Shown piece after piece: positions 15,998 through 43,835 of a stretch of 64,000 nucleotides of DNA. The stretch spans positions 1-64,000 of the forward strand of contig BPDI01000012.1 of NCBI GenBank assembly GCA_019654215.1, given 5' to 3'. Position 1 is the first letter of the stretch. Each line of letters starts with the position of its first letter. This DNA comes from Gammaproteobacteria bacterium. GTDB taxonomy: Bacteria; Pseudomonadota; Gammaproteobacteria; Pseudomonadales; Pseudohongiellaceae. Below the pieces are notes generated by a model. The model had not been told where the DNA came from, made no database searches, and saw nothing but the letters and a program-made list of their open reading frames with translations. The translations under genes and the position numbers were made by a program.

Positions 15998-17500
15998 ATG
16001 AAACTTTCGCTACAGCTAAAGCTCGGTCAGCAGCTGACAATGACACCACAGCTGCAGCAAGCGATTCGACTCTGCAACTTTCAACTTTGGATCTTCAACA
16101 AGAAATTCATCAGGCTTTGGAAAAAAATCCAATGCTGGAGCTGATTGAGGGCAGCGACGAAGAAGAGTCTACTCTGAACGAAGAAGATAATACCCGAGCT
16201 CTAGAAAAAGAAATCTCGCAACCGTCTCAAGTATCTAGAACGAACAAGTATTGAATGGAGACGATGGTAGCTGGCAGGAACAGATTCCTGGTGATCTAGC
16301 TGTGGATACCAATTGGGATGATATTTATCCCAATACTTATTCATCTGCGAATTCTTATAATGTCGATTCACTGGATTACGAATCCAGAAATACGGCAGTC
16401 GATACATTGCAGGATCACCTGCTCTGGCAATTAAATCTGACTCCTATGTCCGAAAAAGATAAGAGCATCGGATTTACGATTATCGATGCTATTGATGCTA
16501 ATGGAATGCTAACTGTCGATATCGATTTGATACACGCCGGCTTTGAAACCGAATTTGAAGTAGAGTTGGATGAAGTATTGGCGGTGCTTCACCGTATCCA
16601 GCAATTCGATCCTATCGGAGTAGGTTACCGCAATCTTTCGGAGTGTTTACTCATTCAGCTAAATCAATTTGAAAATCCGAAAGAATTAAAGCTAATTAGT
16701 AATGCCAAGCTTATAGTTAAAGAGTACATAAGCTTATTGGGTAACCGAGACTATGCGCAATTAATGCGCAAGGCCAAACTCAAGGAAGCAGAACTTAGAG
16801 AGACAATACAGGTTATTGAAAGCCTGGATCCTCGGCCAGGTGCAAAAATCTCTCCACCCTCCACCACGTACATTGTCCCCGATGTAATAGTCACCAAACA
16901 GGTCGAGCCTGGTAAGTGGAAGGTGGAATTGAATCCAGATACCGCACCAAAAATTCGAATCAATAACGATTATGCATCATTAGTAAAACGAGCGGACCCA
17001 AGCGAAGAAAACAACTATCTGCGTGATAATTTGCAAGAGGCCCGCTGGTTTATAAAAAGCCTACAGAGTCGTAATGAAACTCTGATGAAAGTAGCAACAA
17101 GAATTGTCGAACATCAAAAGGGTTTCTTGAATATGGTGAAGAGTCCATGAAGCCTTTGGTGCTGCACGACATAGCTGAAGCAGTAAAAATGCATGAATCC
17201 ACTATTTCCCGGGTAACAACGCAGAAGTACATGCACACACCGAGAGGTATTTTCGAACTCAAATATTTCTTCTCAAGCCATGTTTCTACCAAAGGCGGCG
17301 GTGAATGTTCTTCCACCGCTATTCGAGCAATTATTAAGAAATTAGTTGCAGCAGAGAATGCAAGAAAACCATTGAGCGACAGCAAGATCACTCAATTGCT
17401 CGAAGAAAAAGGAATAAATGTAGCAAGACGAACTATCGCCAAGTATCGAGAATCTCTTTCCATTCCTCCGTCGAATGAACGCAAGCGACTCGTAGAATAG
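15998..17500 (+). CDS. rpoN: RNA polymerase sigma-54 factor, frameshifted
   Basis: Sigma-54 directs transcription from -24/-12 promoters and needs NtrC-type activators such as CbrB, encoded in this window. ATG 15998 gives [20 protein letters not shown], the conserved region I. The core-binding and DNA-binding regions follow ([38 protein letters not shown]), and the C-terminus has the RpoN box [12 protein letters not shown]. Breaks: a missing C near 16070, one near 16247 and one near 17147. Length about 500 residues, normal. In most relatives hpf follows directly; here ptsN does. Confidence 0.94.
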
Positions 17501-37285: not shown

Positions 37286-37462
37286 GTGTATATTCCACGT
37301 TCCATCCTAGTTTTATTAGTCATCATCTATTTGCTTTTCCTAGCAAGCGTTGACTGGATTAATCAAGCTGAGGGCACTTGGTATCGACCTTTCTTAGTAG
37401 GATTTCTCATAGTCGTGATAGCCAGCTGGGCGCACCGGGAGCAAGATTCCGATGAGCTATGA
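37286..37462 (+). CDS. cbrX: small two-helix membrane protein CbrX
   Basis: A GTG-started 58-residue ORF fills the gap between gluQ and cbrA. It has two hydrophobic segments (SILVLLVIIYLLFLASVDW and FLVGFLIVVIASWA) around a conserved-looking EGTWYRPF loop, and ends HREQDSDEL. In Pseudomonas a small membrane protein, CbrX, is encoded at the same place and is co-transcribed with cbrA and cbrB. Overlap with the cbrA start (11 bp) indicates translational coupling. Its biochemical role is unknown. Confidence 0.8.
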   Translation: MYIPRSILVLLVIIYLLFLASVDWINQAEGTWYRPFLVGFLIVVIASWAHREQDSDEL

Positions 37463-40429
37463 GTTATCAACTCTATTGTTTCTAGGTAGTGGCTATTTAG
37501 GATTGCTTTTCGGTGTTGCCTTTATCACCGACAAAGGATGGATTCCGCAACGCTTTGTAAGACACCCAGTAGTCTACGTATTTTCTCTCGGCGTTTTCGC
37601 CAGTATTTGGGCTTACTACACCTCTGTAGGCAATGCATTAAGAGATGGCTATGGTTACCTTGCTCACTCAATTGGTATTTCCTTAGCGTTTCTATTTTCT
37701 CCCCTGCTACTAAAACCACTATTGGAACTAACTCGCACCTATCAACTTAGTTCCCTAGCAGATTTAATGGCCTTTCGTTATCGGTCTCCCTGGGCAGGTA
37801 CGATTACCACCTTAGTAATACTAGTTGGAGTTACCCCTCTAATCGCATTACAAATTCGCGCGGTTGCAGATACTGCTGACATTATTTCAGCAGAATCAGC
37901 GCAGGGGTCAGTGGCAGTTGGCTTCTGCATGCTTATTACGCTGTTCTCAATATTGTTTGGAACATCAAGACGTGCTGGCAGAACACGACATGATGGCTTA
38001 GTAATGGCAATCGCGTTCGAGTCGTGCGTAAAGTTACTTGCATTCCTTGGTGTTGGTGCCTTCGCTGTCTACGGAGCCTTTGGTGGATTTGGAGGGCTCA
38101 ACGATTGGCTCGGAGAGCAACCGGAGATGTTGCTGAACCTGGTGGATACCGATTACTTCAGTTCTTTCCATGTGATGGCATTGCTTTTCTTTACTGCATC
38201 CGTGGCAATGCCTCACATGTTCTACGTGATCTTTAACGAATCTAACGGACAACGTTCTTTATCTTTTGCTAGCTGGGCCCTCCCTCTCTACTTCTTATTA
38301 ATAAGTTTGCCGGTACTTCCAATTCTTTGGGCAGGTCTTCAAGCAGGTGCTCTAGTGCAAGTTGAATATCTACCAGTAGCAATTGGTGCTGCCTACGATG
38401 TGCCTTTTATAACTTTGATTGGCTATGTGGGTGGATTAAGCGCAGCTAGCGGTTTGATTATCGTAATTACACTAGCGCTGTCAAATATGTGCTTGAACCA
38501 CATCATTCTTCCTATTTATCAGCCAAGCGCAAAACAAGATATATATAGATGGTTGCTCTGGCATCGAAGAATTTTAATCACTGCGCTAATCTGGTCTGGT
38601 TTTTTGTTTCATTATCTTCCGGACGATCGCATCAGTATTCAGGTAATTGGAACGGTGACGTTTACTGCCTGTCTGCAATTTCTGCCGGGAATTGTCGCCA
38701 TCCTTTATTGGCCCCAAGGCAATAAGAAAGGCTTCTTGGCTGGCCTTAGCGCCGCCTTTGTAATCTGGTTTTTATTCCTAATGCTGCCTCTGTTTTTAGA
38801 ATTGGACGCAACACCACTCTCTCTTGTTTCTATTAATTGGCGAGAAGTTTCTGCGATTTCTCTAATCGTAAATAGCTTTTTATTTGTATTGGTTTCTCTT
38901 TACAGTACAACAAGCGATGAAGAAAAAAGTTCGGCCGACATTTGCGCGCTAGACACCATTCAAAGGCGCAAGCGCAGCGGTTTAGTTGCCAAATCCCCCG
39001 GAGAATTCATTCGCAGCCTAAGCAAACCATTAGGTAACAAAACTGCTACACGTGAAGTCAATCAAGCACTACAAGATTTAAATCTAAGCATCGACGATCG
39101 CCGTCCCTATTCCATGCGATTATTACGAGGAAAATTAGAAGCAAACCTCTCAGGATTGTTAGGGCCATCAATTGCACGCGAGCTAATTGATGGATATCTG
39201 CCTTACAGCAATGTATCTGAACACGGCAGTTCCGATTTGAACGTTATTGAAAACCGAATTGAATCCTATCGATCAAATCTGTCTGGTATGGCGGCGGACC
39301 TAGACAGTCTGCGTCGCTATCATAGGCAAATGCTTTTAGATTTACCTTTGGGAGTTTGTTCACTCTCATATGATAACGAAATCGTAATGTGGAATAACGC
39401 GCTGGAAGAATTTACTGGAACATCCGCCGGCGATGTTGTTGGATCGCAGTTGATTGACCTGCCAGAACCTTGGTTATCGCTGTTGAGAGATTTTATTAAC
39501 GAAGATGCAAACCATTCTTTCAAACACAATTTTCAACTTCATGGGCAGAAAAAGTCAGTAAATCTGCACAAAGCCTTGATTGAAGAATCAGGAGAGCATG
39601 ACACCAACCATGAAGGAATAATTATATTAATAGAAGACATTACGGAAACCGAACTTTTAGAAGCAGGTCTCACCCACAGCGAACGTCTAGCTTCAATCGG
39701 TCGATTGGCAGCAGGCGTCGCTCACGAAATTGGTAATCCAATAACAGGAATTGCCTGCCTTTGGGTCAAACTATACGCGATGAATATAAAAGCGATGAAT
39801 TAAACAATCTTGCAGAACAAATCATCGAACAAACCAATCGTACCTCAAAAATTTTACAATCTCTCGTTAACTTCGCTCATGCCGGTACCAGTCAGACTCA
39901 AGATGAGAAAGAAGTGATTTCAATCAAAGAGTGCATGGAAGAAGCTAATACTCTTATTTCTCTAGATAAGAAGCAGAAAAACATAGTCTATGAAATCGAA
40001 TGTGACCCGAGAGCTAAGGTATTTGGAGATTCTCAACGGTTATTGCAGGTGTTGGTGAATCTAATTAACAACTCAAGAGATGCCAGCCAACCGAATAGCA
40101 AAATTCTACTTATCGGAAGCATCGAAGAAGACTATGTGCAAATCGTGATTACCGACCAAGGAGTTGGTATCCCCGCCGCTATTAGAGACCGTATTTTTGA
40201 TCCATTCTTCACTACCAAGGAGGCTGGAGAAGGCACCGGGCTTGGATTATCGCTAGGGTTTTTAGCATTGTGAGGGATTTAAACGGGGATATTGATATAA
40301 TTAGTCCTGTCGGGTACAGAAAAAGGAACAGGTACCAGAGTTGTAATTCGCTTCCCTAAATTTCAAGGCGAAGCAGTAGCGAATAATAACGAATTAGAAG
40401 AAGACGCTAAGTTGCAGCAATCTGTCTAA
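37452..40429 (+). CDS. cbrA: sensor histidine kinase CbrA with SSS transporter domain, frameshifted
   Basis: CbrA couples a sodium:solute symporter-like membrane domain to a histidine kinase and controls carbon and nitrogen use through CbrB. Residues 1-490 form about 13 helices of SSS type ([37 protein letters not shown]). A linker and PAS domain follow ([21 protein letters not shown]). The phosphoacceptor His is in [14 protein letters not shown] (about 758), and after a break near 39765 come the N box [28 protein letters not shown] and [10 protein letters not shown]. Further breaks near 40258 and 40312. About 990 residues, as in Pseudomonas. It is encoded in an operon with cbrX and cbrB. Confidence 0.93.
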
Positions 40430-40436
40430 GAAGTTT

Positions 40437-41811
40437 ATGAGCTCAATGAATCAAGTATTAGTAGTTGAAGACGAAGAAATAATTCGCAATGCGTTAAAAC
40501 GTTTGCTGGAACGCCACGACTATGAAGTTTTCGAAGCAGGCACCGTAAAAGGGAAACCTTAGAAATGTATGACATGGATAACTTCGATGTCATCATCAGT
40601 GATTTGCGCCTTCCTGGCGCTCCCGGTACAGACTTAATTAAAGCAACTAAGACTCCGGTCTTGATAATGACCAGCTATTCCAGCATTCGGTCTGCTATCG
40701 ATTCTATGAAGATGGGTGCAGTTGATTACATAGCAAAGCCCTTTGAGCATAACGAAATTATAGAAACCGTCGCGAAAATAATTCGTGAGCACGACCGCGA
40801 AGAAAAGCCTGCTTCTAATGGTGAAGGTCATGAATCTCCGGTTTACGGAATGATCGGTAGTTGTCCGCAAATGATGGAGTTATTCCGACGGATCAGAAAA
40901 GTCGCACAAACAAATTCCACAGTTCTAATTAATGGTGAATCAGGAACTGGTAAAGAATTAGTTGCCAGAGCGATCCAAATCTGAGCACCGCCAGAACCAG
41001 GAAATGATCTCGGTAAACTGCGCAGCTATTCCAGAAAATTTAATCGAATCGGAATTGTTTGGGCATGAAAAAGGTGCGTTTACCGGAGCAACCGCGACAC
41101 GCACTGGCTTGGTAGAGGCAGCAAATGGCAGCACCTTGTTCCTCGACGAAATTGGCGAATTGCCATTAGAGGCACAAGCGCGATTACTTCGCGTCCTGCA
41201 AGAAAACGAAATTCGCAAAGTTGGTTCTGTTCAATCCAAGAAAGTTGATGTGCGACTAGTTGCCCCGACCCATCGAGATTTAAAACAACTAGTAGTAGAC
41301 GGAAATTTTCGCGAAGATCTTTACTATCGCATCAATGTTATGACCTTAGTTATCCCACCATTGAGGGATAGAGGTAACGACATCCTTGAATTAGCCGATG
41401 CAATTCTACATCGAACCTATACTCGTTTGAAAACTCCAATAATGCAATTTAGTGATGTGGCAGGTCGCGCCATCGCCAATTACACCTGGCCGGGAAATGT
41501 ACGGGAATTAGAAAATGCCATTGAACGAGCCGTAGTGTTGGCGGAAGGAAATGAAATCGGTGAGGAGTTATTGGCCATTGGCAACGAACCCGGTGAAACC
41601 GCCCTAGAATCAGCTCAGCCTAGCCAACCAGTAACCAACGAACTAATCGAAGAACTCTCCCTTGAAGATTATTTCCAACGATTTGTTCTAGAGCATCAGG
41701 ACATGATGAATGAAACTCAGCTGGCTAAAAAGCTGGGTATCTCTCGAAAGTGTTTATGGGAAAAAAGGGCAGCGATTTGGTATTCCTCGTAAGAAAAAAC
41801 AAGCAGTTTAA
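40437..41811 (+). CDS. cbrB: NtrC-family sigma-54 response regulator CbrB, frameshifted
   Basis: CbrB is the response regulator of CbrA and activates sigma-54 promoters, notably those of Crc-antagonist RNAs in Pseudomonas. Receiver domain: [18 protein letters not shown], phospho-Asp in [10 protein letters not shown], Lys in [11 protein letters not shown]+ domain: [14 protein letters not shown] (Walker A), [16 protein letters not shown] (GAFTGA sigma-54 loop), FLDEIGELP (Walker B), [17 protein letters not shown] and [16 protein letters not shown]-terminal Fis-type helix-turn-helix: [16 protein letters not shown] then RFGIPRKK. Breaks near 40553, 40983 and 41765. About 458 residues. Confidence 0.93.
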
Positions 41812-41919
41812 TTCCTCAGCACAAATGCACTCACACTTGAATGAATCTGATAGATAACTCAATAACCGAAAGTCCCTAGATTCAGGCATCTGCAACAATC
41901 ATTAACGATTGGAGATATT

Positions 41920-41965
41920 TGTTACCGCTACCCTTCTACACATTTTTCGGTGACATTTAGTAACA
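41920..41965. promoter_or_regulatory. candidate CbrB upstream activating site
   Basis: TGTTAC (41920-41925) and GTAACA (41960-41965) are inverted half-sites 34 bp apart, with a near-match GTGACA at 41950-41955. TGTTAC/GTAACA half-sites are what I recall for CbrB binding in Pseudomonas putida; I cannot check the spacing rule. The element lies 75-120 bp upstream of the sigma-54-like promoter, the usual distance for enhancer binding. Confidence 0.5.
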
Positions 41966-42039
41966 GATTTTAGGGATTGAGGGTTTATTTGCTAGCTCTT
42001 AAAAGTACAAGTTATTGTTTTTAATAGGGTTTAATAACT

Positions 42040-42054
42040 TGGCACAGTTAATCC
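42040..42054 (+). promoter_or_regulatory. sigma-54-like promoter of the CrcZ-like RNA
   Basis: TGGCAC at 42040-42045 is a perfect -24 element. The -12 position reads ATCC instead of TTGC, so the match is incomplete; a base error or a weak promoter are both possible. Transcription would begin about 12 bp later, near 42066, just before the first A-rich cluster. Confidence 0.5.
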
Positions 42055-42065
42055 CCTTTACTAAT

Positions 42066-42336
42066 TCCGATAATAACAATAAACAATAATAATAAGTCTT
42101 AATAAAAACAAAAATAGCATTACTGGGTTATACAACTAAGGTTAGTGCACTAAATAATAATAAGGCTGGGTTTGTGGTCTGAGAGTGACGACTTGTTACG
42201 AAGCCCCAAAATAACCGCCTCTTGCTTATGTGGCGCCGCGTTTGGCACCCAATTAACAATAATAAAAAGTAATAAACCAATAGCAATAATAAAAACTGTT
42301 GCGACTCTAAGGGGGTGAATTTCACCCCCTTTTTAT
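42066..42336 (+). ncRNA. CrcZ-like regulatory RNA with five A-rich Hfq/Crc-type motif clusters
   Basis: In Pseudomonas, CrcZ lies between cbrB and pcnB, is transcribed from a CbrB-activated sigma-54 promoter, and titrates Hfq and Crc through repeated AANAANAA motifs. The same position here holds about 270 nt with no plausible ORF and clusters of such motifs at about 42070-42096, 42100-42116, 42151-42163, 42255-42276 and 42282-42295 (for example AACAATAATAATAAG, AAATAATAATAAG, AACAATAATAAAAAG, AGCAATAATAAAA). Between clusters lie GC-richer stretches able to fold (GGCGCCGCGTTTGGC region). It ends at a strong terminator. Upstream boundary is inferred from the promoter. Sequence identity to CrcZ outside the motifs was not assessed. 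Confidence 0.72.
42311..42334 (+). terminator. intrinsic terminator of the CrcZ-like RNA
   Basis: GGGGGTGAA (42311-42319) and TTCACCCCC (42321-42329) form a near-perfect GC-rich stem, directly followed by TTTTT. It is one of the strongest terminators in the window and defines the RNA 3' end. Confidence 0.9.
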
Positions 42337-42480
42337 TGTCTGCGATAAAAGTATTCCTAATCGTCTTTGCTAACAGTATTATCCTCCACTTGGCGTTGTG
42401 TCATTTGTCTTCTTCTTAAAACTCACTATATATAAATCTATGGGATTGGAACCCATGGCAAGCATAAATAATCAGGATTA

Positions 42481-43835
42481 ATGAATTCAAAAATCGATCT
42501 ACCGGGCTTGGAAAGAGCCACTTTATTCCACGCGATGGCCATAACATTTCCCGCAATCAGATTGCACCGAATGCACTCAAAGTTTTGTATCGACTACTAG
42601 GTGCTGATTTCCATGCCTACATAGTAGGCGGTGGTGTAAGGGATATGCTTTTAGGTAACGAGCCCAAAGATTTCGACATTGCTACCAACGCTAAGCCAGA
42701 AGAAGTTAAAAAACTATTCAAAAATGCACGAGTTATAGGTCGGCGATTCAAAATAGTTCACATTCGATTTGGTCGAGAGATTATCGAGGTCACTACATTT
42801 AGAGCCAATCATAATCCACAGAATCAAATTGCGGACCATGTTCCCCTCCGTCAAATTAGAGGTTTAGATTCTGCCCATTCAAAGTCTGGCATGATATTGC
42901 GTGACAATGTCTATGGCGACATCGATGAGGATGCGATGCGCAGGGACTTCACCGTTAATGCCCTTTACTATACGACTCGAAATTTCGAGTTGCTCGACTT
43001 TGCAGAAGGACTAACAGATCTAAATAATAAGCAAATTCGAATTATTGGAGATGCAGAGGACCGCTATAAAGAAGATCCTGTTCGTATGCTCAGAGCAATC
43101 AGATTTGCGGCAAAACTGAATTTTGAAATCGAAGAAAAAACCAACAAACCAATTAACGATCTCGCTTATTTGCTGGACTCTGTTTCATCGGCACGTTTGT
43201 TCGACGAGACATTAAAACTATTAATCGGAGGCTCTGCCCAACGTACTTTCAATTTACTGCGTAAATACCAGCTTGGAAGTTATCTACTCGCTCCTACCAT
43301 AGAAGCATTCGAACAGGGTGATGTTATCTCAACCAACCTAGTAGAACTAGCTCTGCGTAACACAGACCAACGCCTGGCCCAGGGCAAGTCAGTCACACCT
43401 GCTTTTTTATTTGCAGCACTATTGTGGCCTGTACTTAAACTGAAACTGGCTGCATCTAAAAACCAGAATTTACATCCTCAACAAGCTTTTCAGCAAGCGG
43501 CTCAAGCGGCACTCATGGAACAACTTGACTATACCGCAATTCCTAAACGATTTACTGTAGCCAGTCGGGAAATTTGGGAATTACAAAATCGTCTGCAAAG
43601 ACGCAACAAGCAAAGTGTTGAATCTGTATTCAATCACCCTCGATTTCGAGCTGCCTATGATTTTTTATTATTGAGAGAAGAAGCCGGAGAGGAATTGAAT
43701 GGGTTAGGTCAATGGTGGACGAATTTCCAAAACGGTGATACAAAGTTACGAATGGAACTGATCGCTGCGGTGTCTAAGTCAAAGAAGCGTCGCGGACGTC
43801 GAAGAAAACGCAATCCATCAGGTGTGAGTGAGTGA
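42481..43835 (+). CDS. pcnB: poly(A) polymerase I
   Basis: PcnB adds 3' poly(A) tails that promote RNA decay. ATG 42481 starts MNSKIDLPGLERATL; a break near 42530 leads into IPRDGHNISRNQIAPNALKVLYRLL. The nucleotidyltransferase motif is YIVGGGVRDMLLGNEPKDFDIATNA, then FTVNALYY, EDPVRMLRAIRFAAKL, and the family's basic C-terminal tail (KSKKRRGRRRKRNPSG). About 451 residues. Its last codons overlap the next start (GTGA). A small inverted repeat (ATGGG/CCCAT, 42440-42456) lies in the leader. Confidence 0.94.

Follow-up and report, generated by a model that had tools for sequence, protein, structure and literature searches.

A predicted CrcZ-type Hfq decoy RNA between cbrB and pcnB in a family of Pseudomonadales without a recognizable Crc

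The interval between cbrB and pcnB is, in Pseudomonas and Azotobacter, the place of the RNA CrcZ (RF01675), which lies on the same strand as both genes, and the question raised by the locus described here is whether the same interval in a member of the Pseudohongiellaceae holds an RNA of the same kind, and through which proteins it would act. The available text of a 2022 review (PMC8871633) calls CbrAB with crcZ unique to the Pseudomonadaceae and describes the order cbrA-cbrB-crcZ only there, a structural paper terms Crc Pseudomonad-specific in its accessible part (PMC9890229), and the accessible portions of PMC6890931 and PMC8312277 contain no extension of the range of CrcZ; within the available parts of the open-access literature we met no report of such an RNA outside the Pseudomonadaceae. 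The DNA analyzed, referred to below as the window, is a stretch of 64,000 nucleotides on contig 12 of a 2.96-Mb genome in 71 contigs, with a completeness rating of 72.9%. We consider it highly probable that its cbrB-pcnB gap encodes a CrcZ-type RNA, a CbrAB/sigma-54-driven Hfq decoy that here would act without Crc. The RNA is real by sequence and conservation; its transcription, its control by CbrB, its binding to Hfq, and its role in carbon use we infer by close analogy.

The genes in the window run in the order cbrA-cbrB-gap-pcnB (Table 1). The gap measures 669 bp from the last matched codon of cbrB to the ATG of pcnB, which was placed by eye from the start seen in relatives, the listed open reading frame (ORF) starting at 42585; within it the ORF list of the window has no ORF of at least 80 aa, so that both the length and the lack of a credible gene given in the preliminary description hold. 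Searched by tblastn with the proteins of an intact relative, cbrA is recovered in two frames at 92.7% and 78.5% identity and cbrB in four pieces at 82-100%. Pfam finds PAS and HATPase_c in the window's cbrA (HisKA, PAS, and HATPase_c in the intact relative) and did not detect there the SLC5 domain expected for CbrA; positions 42585-43835 match PolyA_pol, PolyA_pol_RNAbd, and PolyA_pol_arg_C. Overall, identity to intact relatives spans 78-100% across the two pieces of cbrA and the four of cbrB, whose frames change, and single bases of this assembly are therefore to be treated with caution; the short-range frame splits in cbrA, cbrB, and rpoN resemble indels of the assembly more than decay of the genes.

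Table 1. Features of the window; positions of helices 1-3 were worked out by hand from alignment columns
Feature	Positions	Strand	Remarks
rpoN (sigma-54), DNA-binding domain	17013..17488	+	Two overlapping frames; PF04552, 190.3 and 40.6 bits
cbrA, histidine kinase	37452..40429	+	PAS, HATPase, long N-terminal part; frame broken in assembly
cbrB, response regulator and sigma-54 activator	40437..41808	+	Pfam Response_reg, Sigma54_activat; frame broken in assembly
CbrB-type subsite F, TGTTAC	41920..41925	+	Same as published F1 (PMC6296734, available text); aligned in same-genus loci
CbrB-type subsite R, GTAACA	41960..41965	+	40 bp past F
Sigma-54-type promoter	42039..42054	+	TTGGCAC at 42039; -24 perfect, -12 TCC not TGC
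Predicted CrcZ-type decoy RNA, about 270 nt	42066..42336	+	Motifs against shuffles, layout in relatives, model R1
(ARN)n>=4 runs one to three, predicted Hfq distal-face sites, 5' end	42072..42118	+	42072-42083, 42085-42096, 42101-42118
Helix 1, hairpin GCAUUA...UAGUGC	42117..42148	+	98.6% of cells paired; no double changes
(ARN)n>=4 run four	42153..42164	+	
Helix 2, hairpin GTGAC/GTTAC	42185..42199	+	Both-side changes at 5/5 pairs
Helix 3, hairpin	42232..42249	+	Both-side changes at 4/5 pairs
(ARN)n>=4 runs five and six	42255..42296	+	42255-42269, 42279-42296
Intrinsic terminator	42309..42336	+	10-pair stem 42309-42331, then TTTATTG
pcnB, poly(A) polymerase	42481..43835	+	Start near 42481 by relatives, in another frame than the ORF from 42585

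The motif content of the predicted RNA sets it apart from its surroundings. It contains 15 matches to AANAANAA and six (ARN)n>=4 runs, compared with means of 1.75 and 0.47 in 2000 dinucleotide shuffles, none of which reaches either observed value; when the window was scanned on both strands in 270-nt stretches at 10-nt steps, this proved the densest, with 15 matches vs 4 in the next stretch on the plus strand and 5 in the best on the minus strand. Its GC fraction is 0.35 (0.43 window-wide). Motif enrichment is also seen in the relatives, where in 43 of 52 gaps at most one of 500 shuffles reaches the observed AANAANAA count and a strand bias is seen. The preliminary description was thus right about a motif-rich stretch of about 270 nt and about its strong terminator, which consists of a 10-pair stem and a T-rich tail, and by the (ARN)n>=4 rule was short by one in counting five clusters. 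Two of three f21 loci likewise have six runs and the third has five. According to the available part of PMC4063720, six is also the number of such runs in CrcZ of strain PAO1, which at 407 nt is longer than the window RNA.

Signals of the CbrB and sigma-54 type lie upstream of the RNA, including a promoter that the preliminary description, in naming these regulators, had left undescribed. As in Pseudomonas and Azotobacter, TGTTAC and GTAACA elements precede a sigma-54-type promoter, ARN repeats open the RNA, and a terminator closes it. In the available text of PMC6296734 the centers of the CbrB subsites, F1 (TGTTAC) and R1/R2 (GTAACA/GTAACg), are spaced by 20-25 bp; same-genus loci retain the F and far R subsites, mostly 40-41 bp apart, whereas the middle subsite is unrecognizable at its usual place in the window and in the same-genus loci, which leaves two of the three published subsites recognizable. 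Against the sigma-54 consensus GG-N10-GC, the window has a perfect -24 and a -12 that reads CC instead of GC. Among the same-genus loci L001-L027, of which the window is L001, 23 of 27 show a -24 that can be read and that precedes A-rich sequence, and 22 of these 23 carry a perfect TGGCAY-N6-TGC, the window with its TCC being the sole exception; with its -12 off consensus, the window copy may be weakly driven or misread in the assembly. Transcription from sigma-54 promoters starts about 12 nt past the -12 element, and the start predicted in this way coincides with 42066. A scan of 41500-42700 for sigma-70 promoters returned 3 sites vs 3.5 in shuffles and thus lends a promoter of that type no support.

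Conservation was followed in 58 genomes of relatives, 57 of which were matched by a PcnB query, a few via weak paralogues only. Where same-genus loci have the RNA, the F site, R site, promoter, A-rich blocks, hairpins, and terminator all align; conservation in relatives is among the points of the preliminary description that find support, and apparent losses within the genus also occur. Alignment A1 comprises 18 of the 27 same-genus loci, and the RNA model R1 accordingly leans to typical members, nine loci (L006, L009, L010, L014, L015, L016, L019, L021, and L024) having been left out as partial, divergent, or with a terminator unfound in the scan. Paired cells in A1 amount to 91.5%, compared with 84.9% after shuffling and 38-52% after sliding, and both-side changes occur at 13 of 25 pairs, the structure itself being derived from the same alignment; the terminator, which is helix 4 of the alignment, has them at 4 of 7 pairs, and helix 1, which hardly varies, is little evidence by itself because it has no double changes. 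Model R1 matches 33 of the 58 relatives, 33 of 244 genomes of the order, and 45 of 69 genomes of the window's family (f1), and the predicted RNA, itself in the training set, is its only match in the window's own genome. The scores are 277.7 bits for the window and, in two close records, 270.8 for L053 and 264.8 for L054, the training set including the sequences of the window and L054 and not that of L053, compared with at most 16.9 bits at 34 loci of distant organisms that served as a negative control; in L054 (WLWQ01000002.1, matching contig G012:C3 in length and place) the counterpart occupies 1072716-1072996 on the minus strand. Five same-genus genomes (L028-L032) keep cbrB in front of a gap of 121-164 bp with no A-rich RNA, and R1 found no match in those genomes; these look like natural losses of the RNA, the two-component system being retained. 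A separate pattern concerns genera g113, g114, and g118 of family f1, where in all 22 searched genomes R1 has no match and the Crc profile described below gave none in the size range of the nuclease clade.

The link of the RNA to CrcZ itself does not hang on one model. The Rfam CrcZ model, applied to 811 nt of the locus, gave 23.6 bits (E 3.4e-4, with a bias correction of 6.7 bits) against a gathering cut-off of 95, and the covariance-model check that had been proposed for CrcZ thus came out below the cut-off; a scan of the window with Rfam at gathering cut-offs returned no match. Rfam matches to RmaA, SraG, and BtsR1 were set aside as chance, having E values of 0.085 to 1.6, lying far under their cut-offs, and falling mostly on the terminator hairpin. 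Searching the whole of the window's genome with the CrcZ model yielded nothing at E<=0.001, and since no control genome matched either, this null does not show absence. Across the order, the CrcZ model matches 50 of 244 genomes and passes its cut-off in 11, eight in f21 and three in f2, which lies outside f21; a cut-off passed by 11 of 244 order genomes misses many RNAs of this kind. We take f21 by inference to be the Pseudomonadaceae, as proteins of f21 surround the solved P. aeruginosa Crc in the tree. Used as a deep homology probe, R1 found no match in f21 under stricter filters, and the link to CrcZ therefore rests on synteny, layout, and the double matches in f2 and f1/g23, both of which are matched by the Rfam CrcZ model and by R1. 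With the place of pcnB unlisted for 8 Rfam CrcZ matches and 5 R1 matches, 42 of 49 matches of the former and 24 of 28 of the latter with a listed place lie just upstream of pcnB. The off-locus matches include three second copies in f21, as expected for CrcY/CrcX; weak off-locus matches to either model outside f21 (G049, G043, G081, G260, and G059) could be due to CrcY-like second copies, to contig breaks, or to chance.

We call the RNA a positional and, by analogy, functional counterpart of CrcZ and keep it out of RF01675 because it falls below the Rfam cut-off. The earlier identification of a CrcZ-like RNA with CrcZ-type motifs at the CrcZ locus is borne out by its place between cbrB and pcnB, its strand, and its six runs. 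Two other groups of RNAs differ from it, CrcY and CrcX of Pseudomonas in lying at loci other than that of crcZ, which the window RNA occupies, and the decoys RsmY/RsmZ and CsrB in presenting GGA motifs to CsrA/RsmA, not ARN runs to Hfq. The likeness lies, for CrcY and CrcX, in being related RNAs that also antagonize Crc/Hfq, CrcY being driven by CbrB and sigma-54 in P. putida (PMC8871633, in its available text), and, for RsmY/RsmZ and CsrB, in being RNAs that titrate a protein, a comparison drawn in the accessible part of PMC4063720.

The reach of this arrangement was surveyed in 112 regions upstream of pcnB, namely 52 from the relatives and 60 further ones, which were mostly one per genus among the listed pcnB places together with extra members of f1, f16, and f20; where cbrB was not found, the sequence before pcnB, to a length of at most 1 kb, was taken as the gap. 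The joint layout was scored strictly, requiring TGGCAY-N6-TGC, a motif 8-60 nt further along, and no fewer than 4 motifs in 400 nt; it is present in 82 of the 112 gaps, 80 of which also have a CbrB-type half site upstream, compared with none of 112 antisense and none in each of 20 shuffle rounds, and it persists across gaps of very different length. At least one gap has it in 30 of the 38 sampled families; the preliminary description, which had placed such an RNA in a lineage outside Pseudomonas proper, underestimated the range of the layout. All sampled members of f5, f9, f18, f19, f43, f44, f45, and f46, most of them one to three genomes, lack the strict layout, A-rich clusters without the strict promoter being present in f5 (L048) and f44. 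So do 10 of 32 same-genus gaps: the window, because its -12 reads TCC; L009, L010, L014, and L015, which have no readable promoter; and L028-L032. Some genomes of f30, f47, f6, f38, and f12 have two sigma-54-type promoters in one pcnB-upstream gap with A-rich clusters after each (L210, L225, L236, L256, L229, L214, L040, and L043), which suggests tandem CrcZ-like RNAs.

Absence of hfq, which the preliminary description had held to be damaging, is not what was found: hfq, recovered in part only, and rpoN, whose product would be the sigma factor that the promoter needs, are both present in the window's genome, and in the set of 58 relatives they were found in 54 and 51 genomes, respectively. The Hfq distal-face residues are kept in all 17 proteins read; Y25, G29, I30, K31, Q33, and Q52, which we take to have roles in the distal face, are unchanged in all 11 same-genus proteins. 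At residue 28, in the distal-face loop, the same 11 proteins (L296-L306) have S and six from other families have N.

Crc is another matter. The window's genome, at 72.9% completeness, yielded one Crc/exonuclease-III-like protein; among solved structures it scores highest with Neisseria NApe, at 288 bits, and P. aeruginosa Crc, at 274 bits, the E. coli-type exonuclease III (1ako) reaching 79 bits. NCBIfam, tried with four proteins, offered no model separating Crc from exonuclease III, for which reason the separation was made with a tree and two profiles; an open-access literature search on Crc and exonucleases found nothing. In a motif table and tree of 74 rows from the order, rooted at the midpoint and with a bootstrap not fully settled, 36 rows form a Crc clade (support 100/99) that includes P. 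aeruginosa Crc and has degenerate catalytic motifs; a tally of the tree rows places its proteins in 28 families. The nuclease-type proteins keep QE, DWN, and SDH, and the window's own protein is among them, outside the Crc clade. The two profiles divide the clade from the nuclease type without overlap (-157 to -20 vs +65 to +168 bits), most of the sequences scored having also trained both profiles.

The Crc-clade profile, on which known Crc-clade proteins score 280-445 bits, found matches in 66 of the 69 family genomes; the 30 best loci (L160 among them) are all of the nuclease type, and for matches under 302 bits the verdict mostly came from the score, L168, L167, and L169 having been read. 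L168 is of the nuclease type. L167 (G080) and L169 (G145), both of genus g23, represent a third exonuclease-III-like type with active-looking motifs (QETK, DLNVCH, GSDHCP). No protein recognizable as a true Crc was thus seen in the 69 family genomes, the 30 best loci having been read and the rest mostly judged by score; a divergent Crc may stand among the eight family matches of 295-301 bits, which were judged by score and two of which are in genomes without an R1 match (G312 is one), or one still more divergent may exist. The Crc half of the Hfq/Crc circuit supposed in the preliminary description is therefore not sustained, and since absence of crc had been named there as evidence against the proposal, the Hfq/Crc version is in trouble, whereas the version with an Hfq decoy stands. 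That no Crc-clade protein was found in the window's family is also, next to the unrecognizable middle CbrB subsite, a difference from the Pseudomonas system.

With these pieces the switch that we favor can be outlined. When preferred carbon is short, CbrA would activate CbrB, which on its TGTTAC/GTAACA sites would drive the sigma-54 promoter; an RNA of about 270 nt would begin near 42066 and run to the terminator. Several Hfq hexamers would be taken up, by their distal faces, on its six ARN runs and so be drawn away from A-rich ribosome-binding sites, releasing translation of catabolic genes. Because no Crc co-repressor was found, the decoy would in the window's family act through Hfq alone. 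The available part of PMC4063720 reports that CrcZ binds the distal face of Hfq and that Hfq is the principal repressor, with Crc ancillary, which makes an Hfq-only decoy plausible.

The most serious competitor, unlikely in our judgment, keeps the Hfq/Crc decoy in its strict form and lets the lineage's intact Crc/NApe-like nuclease double as co-repressor, titrated along with Hfq. The RNA-facing residues of Crc include 77, 135, 139, 140, and 141 (PMC9890229, in its available part), and these positions are basic in all 36 Crc-clade rows; most of this basic patch recurs in the window's own protein (K S K K R R at 77, 135, 138, 139, 140, and 141) and likewise in those of G012 and G172. Within f1, moreover, the RNA is present in 37 of 39 genomes with a match of nuclease-clade size vs 8 of 30 without, an association confounded by kinship. 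The candidate nevertheless lies outside the well-supported Crc clade with its QE, DWN, and SDH kept, position 140 is basic in just 11 of 36 f1 rows, or 7 of 31 genomes after merging repeats, the window's own protein included, and the eight RNA-bearing genomes without such a match have to be accounted for. G025, a single-contig genome, is instructive here: its protein lacks the patch, reading SGDDSR, yet its RNA scores 269 bits.

The remaining readings differ over whether a free Hfq decoy exists at all. An A-rich spacer recruiting Hfq in cis to the cbrB or pcnB mRNA would suit an RNA flanked by two same-strand genes, and read-through from the cbrB promoter into crcZ is reported for Pseudomonas in the available text of PMC8871633; we think this very improbable, as within the genus the RNA has a promoter-type signal of its own on one side and a strong terminator on the other, the motif clusters are spread through the RNA instead of sitting at the start of pcnB, and the layout is kept despite the varying gap length. 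Equally slim is the chance that the RNA is A-rich by accident and serves as a sponge for CsrA/RsmA or another protein, or as a base-pairing sRNA. Helix 1, being nearly invariant, could serve another binder or pairing, and Pseudomonas CrcZ is reportedly bound by RsmA and RsmN (PMC8871633, same text), but the feature common to families is the ARN-type runs, the hairpin sequences being aligned within the genus only. That the gap is a functionless low-complexity A-rich spacer is scarcely credible: it is A+T-rich, its Rfam match is compositionally biased, and its single-sequence fold is weak (z -1.81), and against this stand the 2000 shuffles without one equal, the strand bias in relatives, the covariation, and a promoter locked in position in 82 of 112 gaps.

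What is new beside the Hfq decoy reading is the breadth of the RNA layout across the order and its separation from Crc. In a family with the RNA and no recognizable Crc the two halves of the circuit come apart, and a standing question becomes testable, that of what Crc contributes to Hfq in carbon repression. A broader proposal, to which we give about even chances, is that the ARN decoy RNA driven by CbrAB and sigma-54 is an order-wide and probably ancestral Hfq switch, that Crc is a dispensable add-on, catalytically degenerate and related to an enzyme of the AP-endonuclease type, and that the window's family is Hfq-only. Two genomes from other families, G057 (f22) and G094 (f17), have the RNA layout and one Crc-like match each, of the nuclease type, and in the little seen of them these families look like that of the window in having the RNA without Crc.
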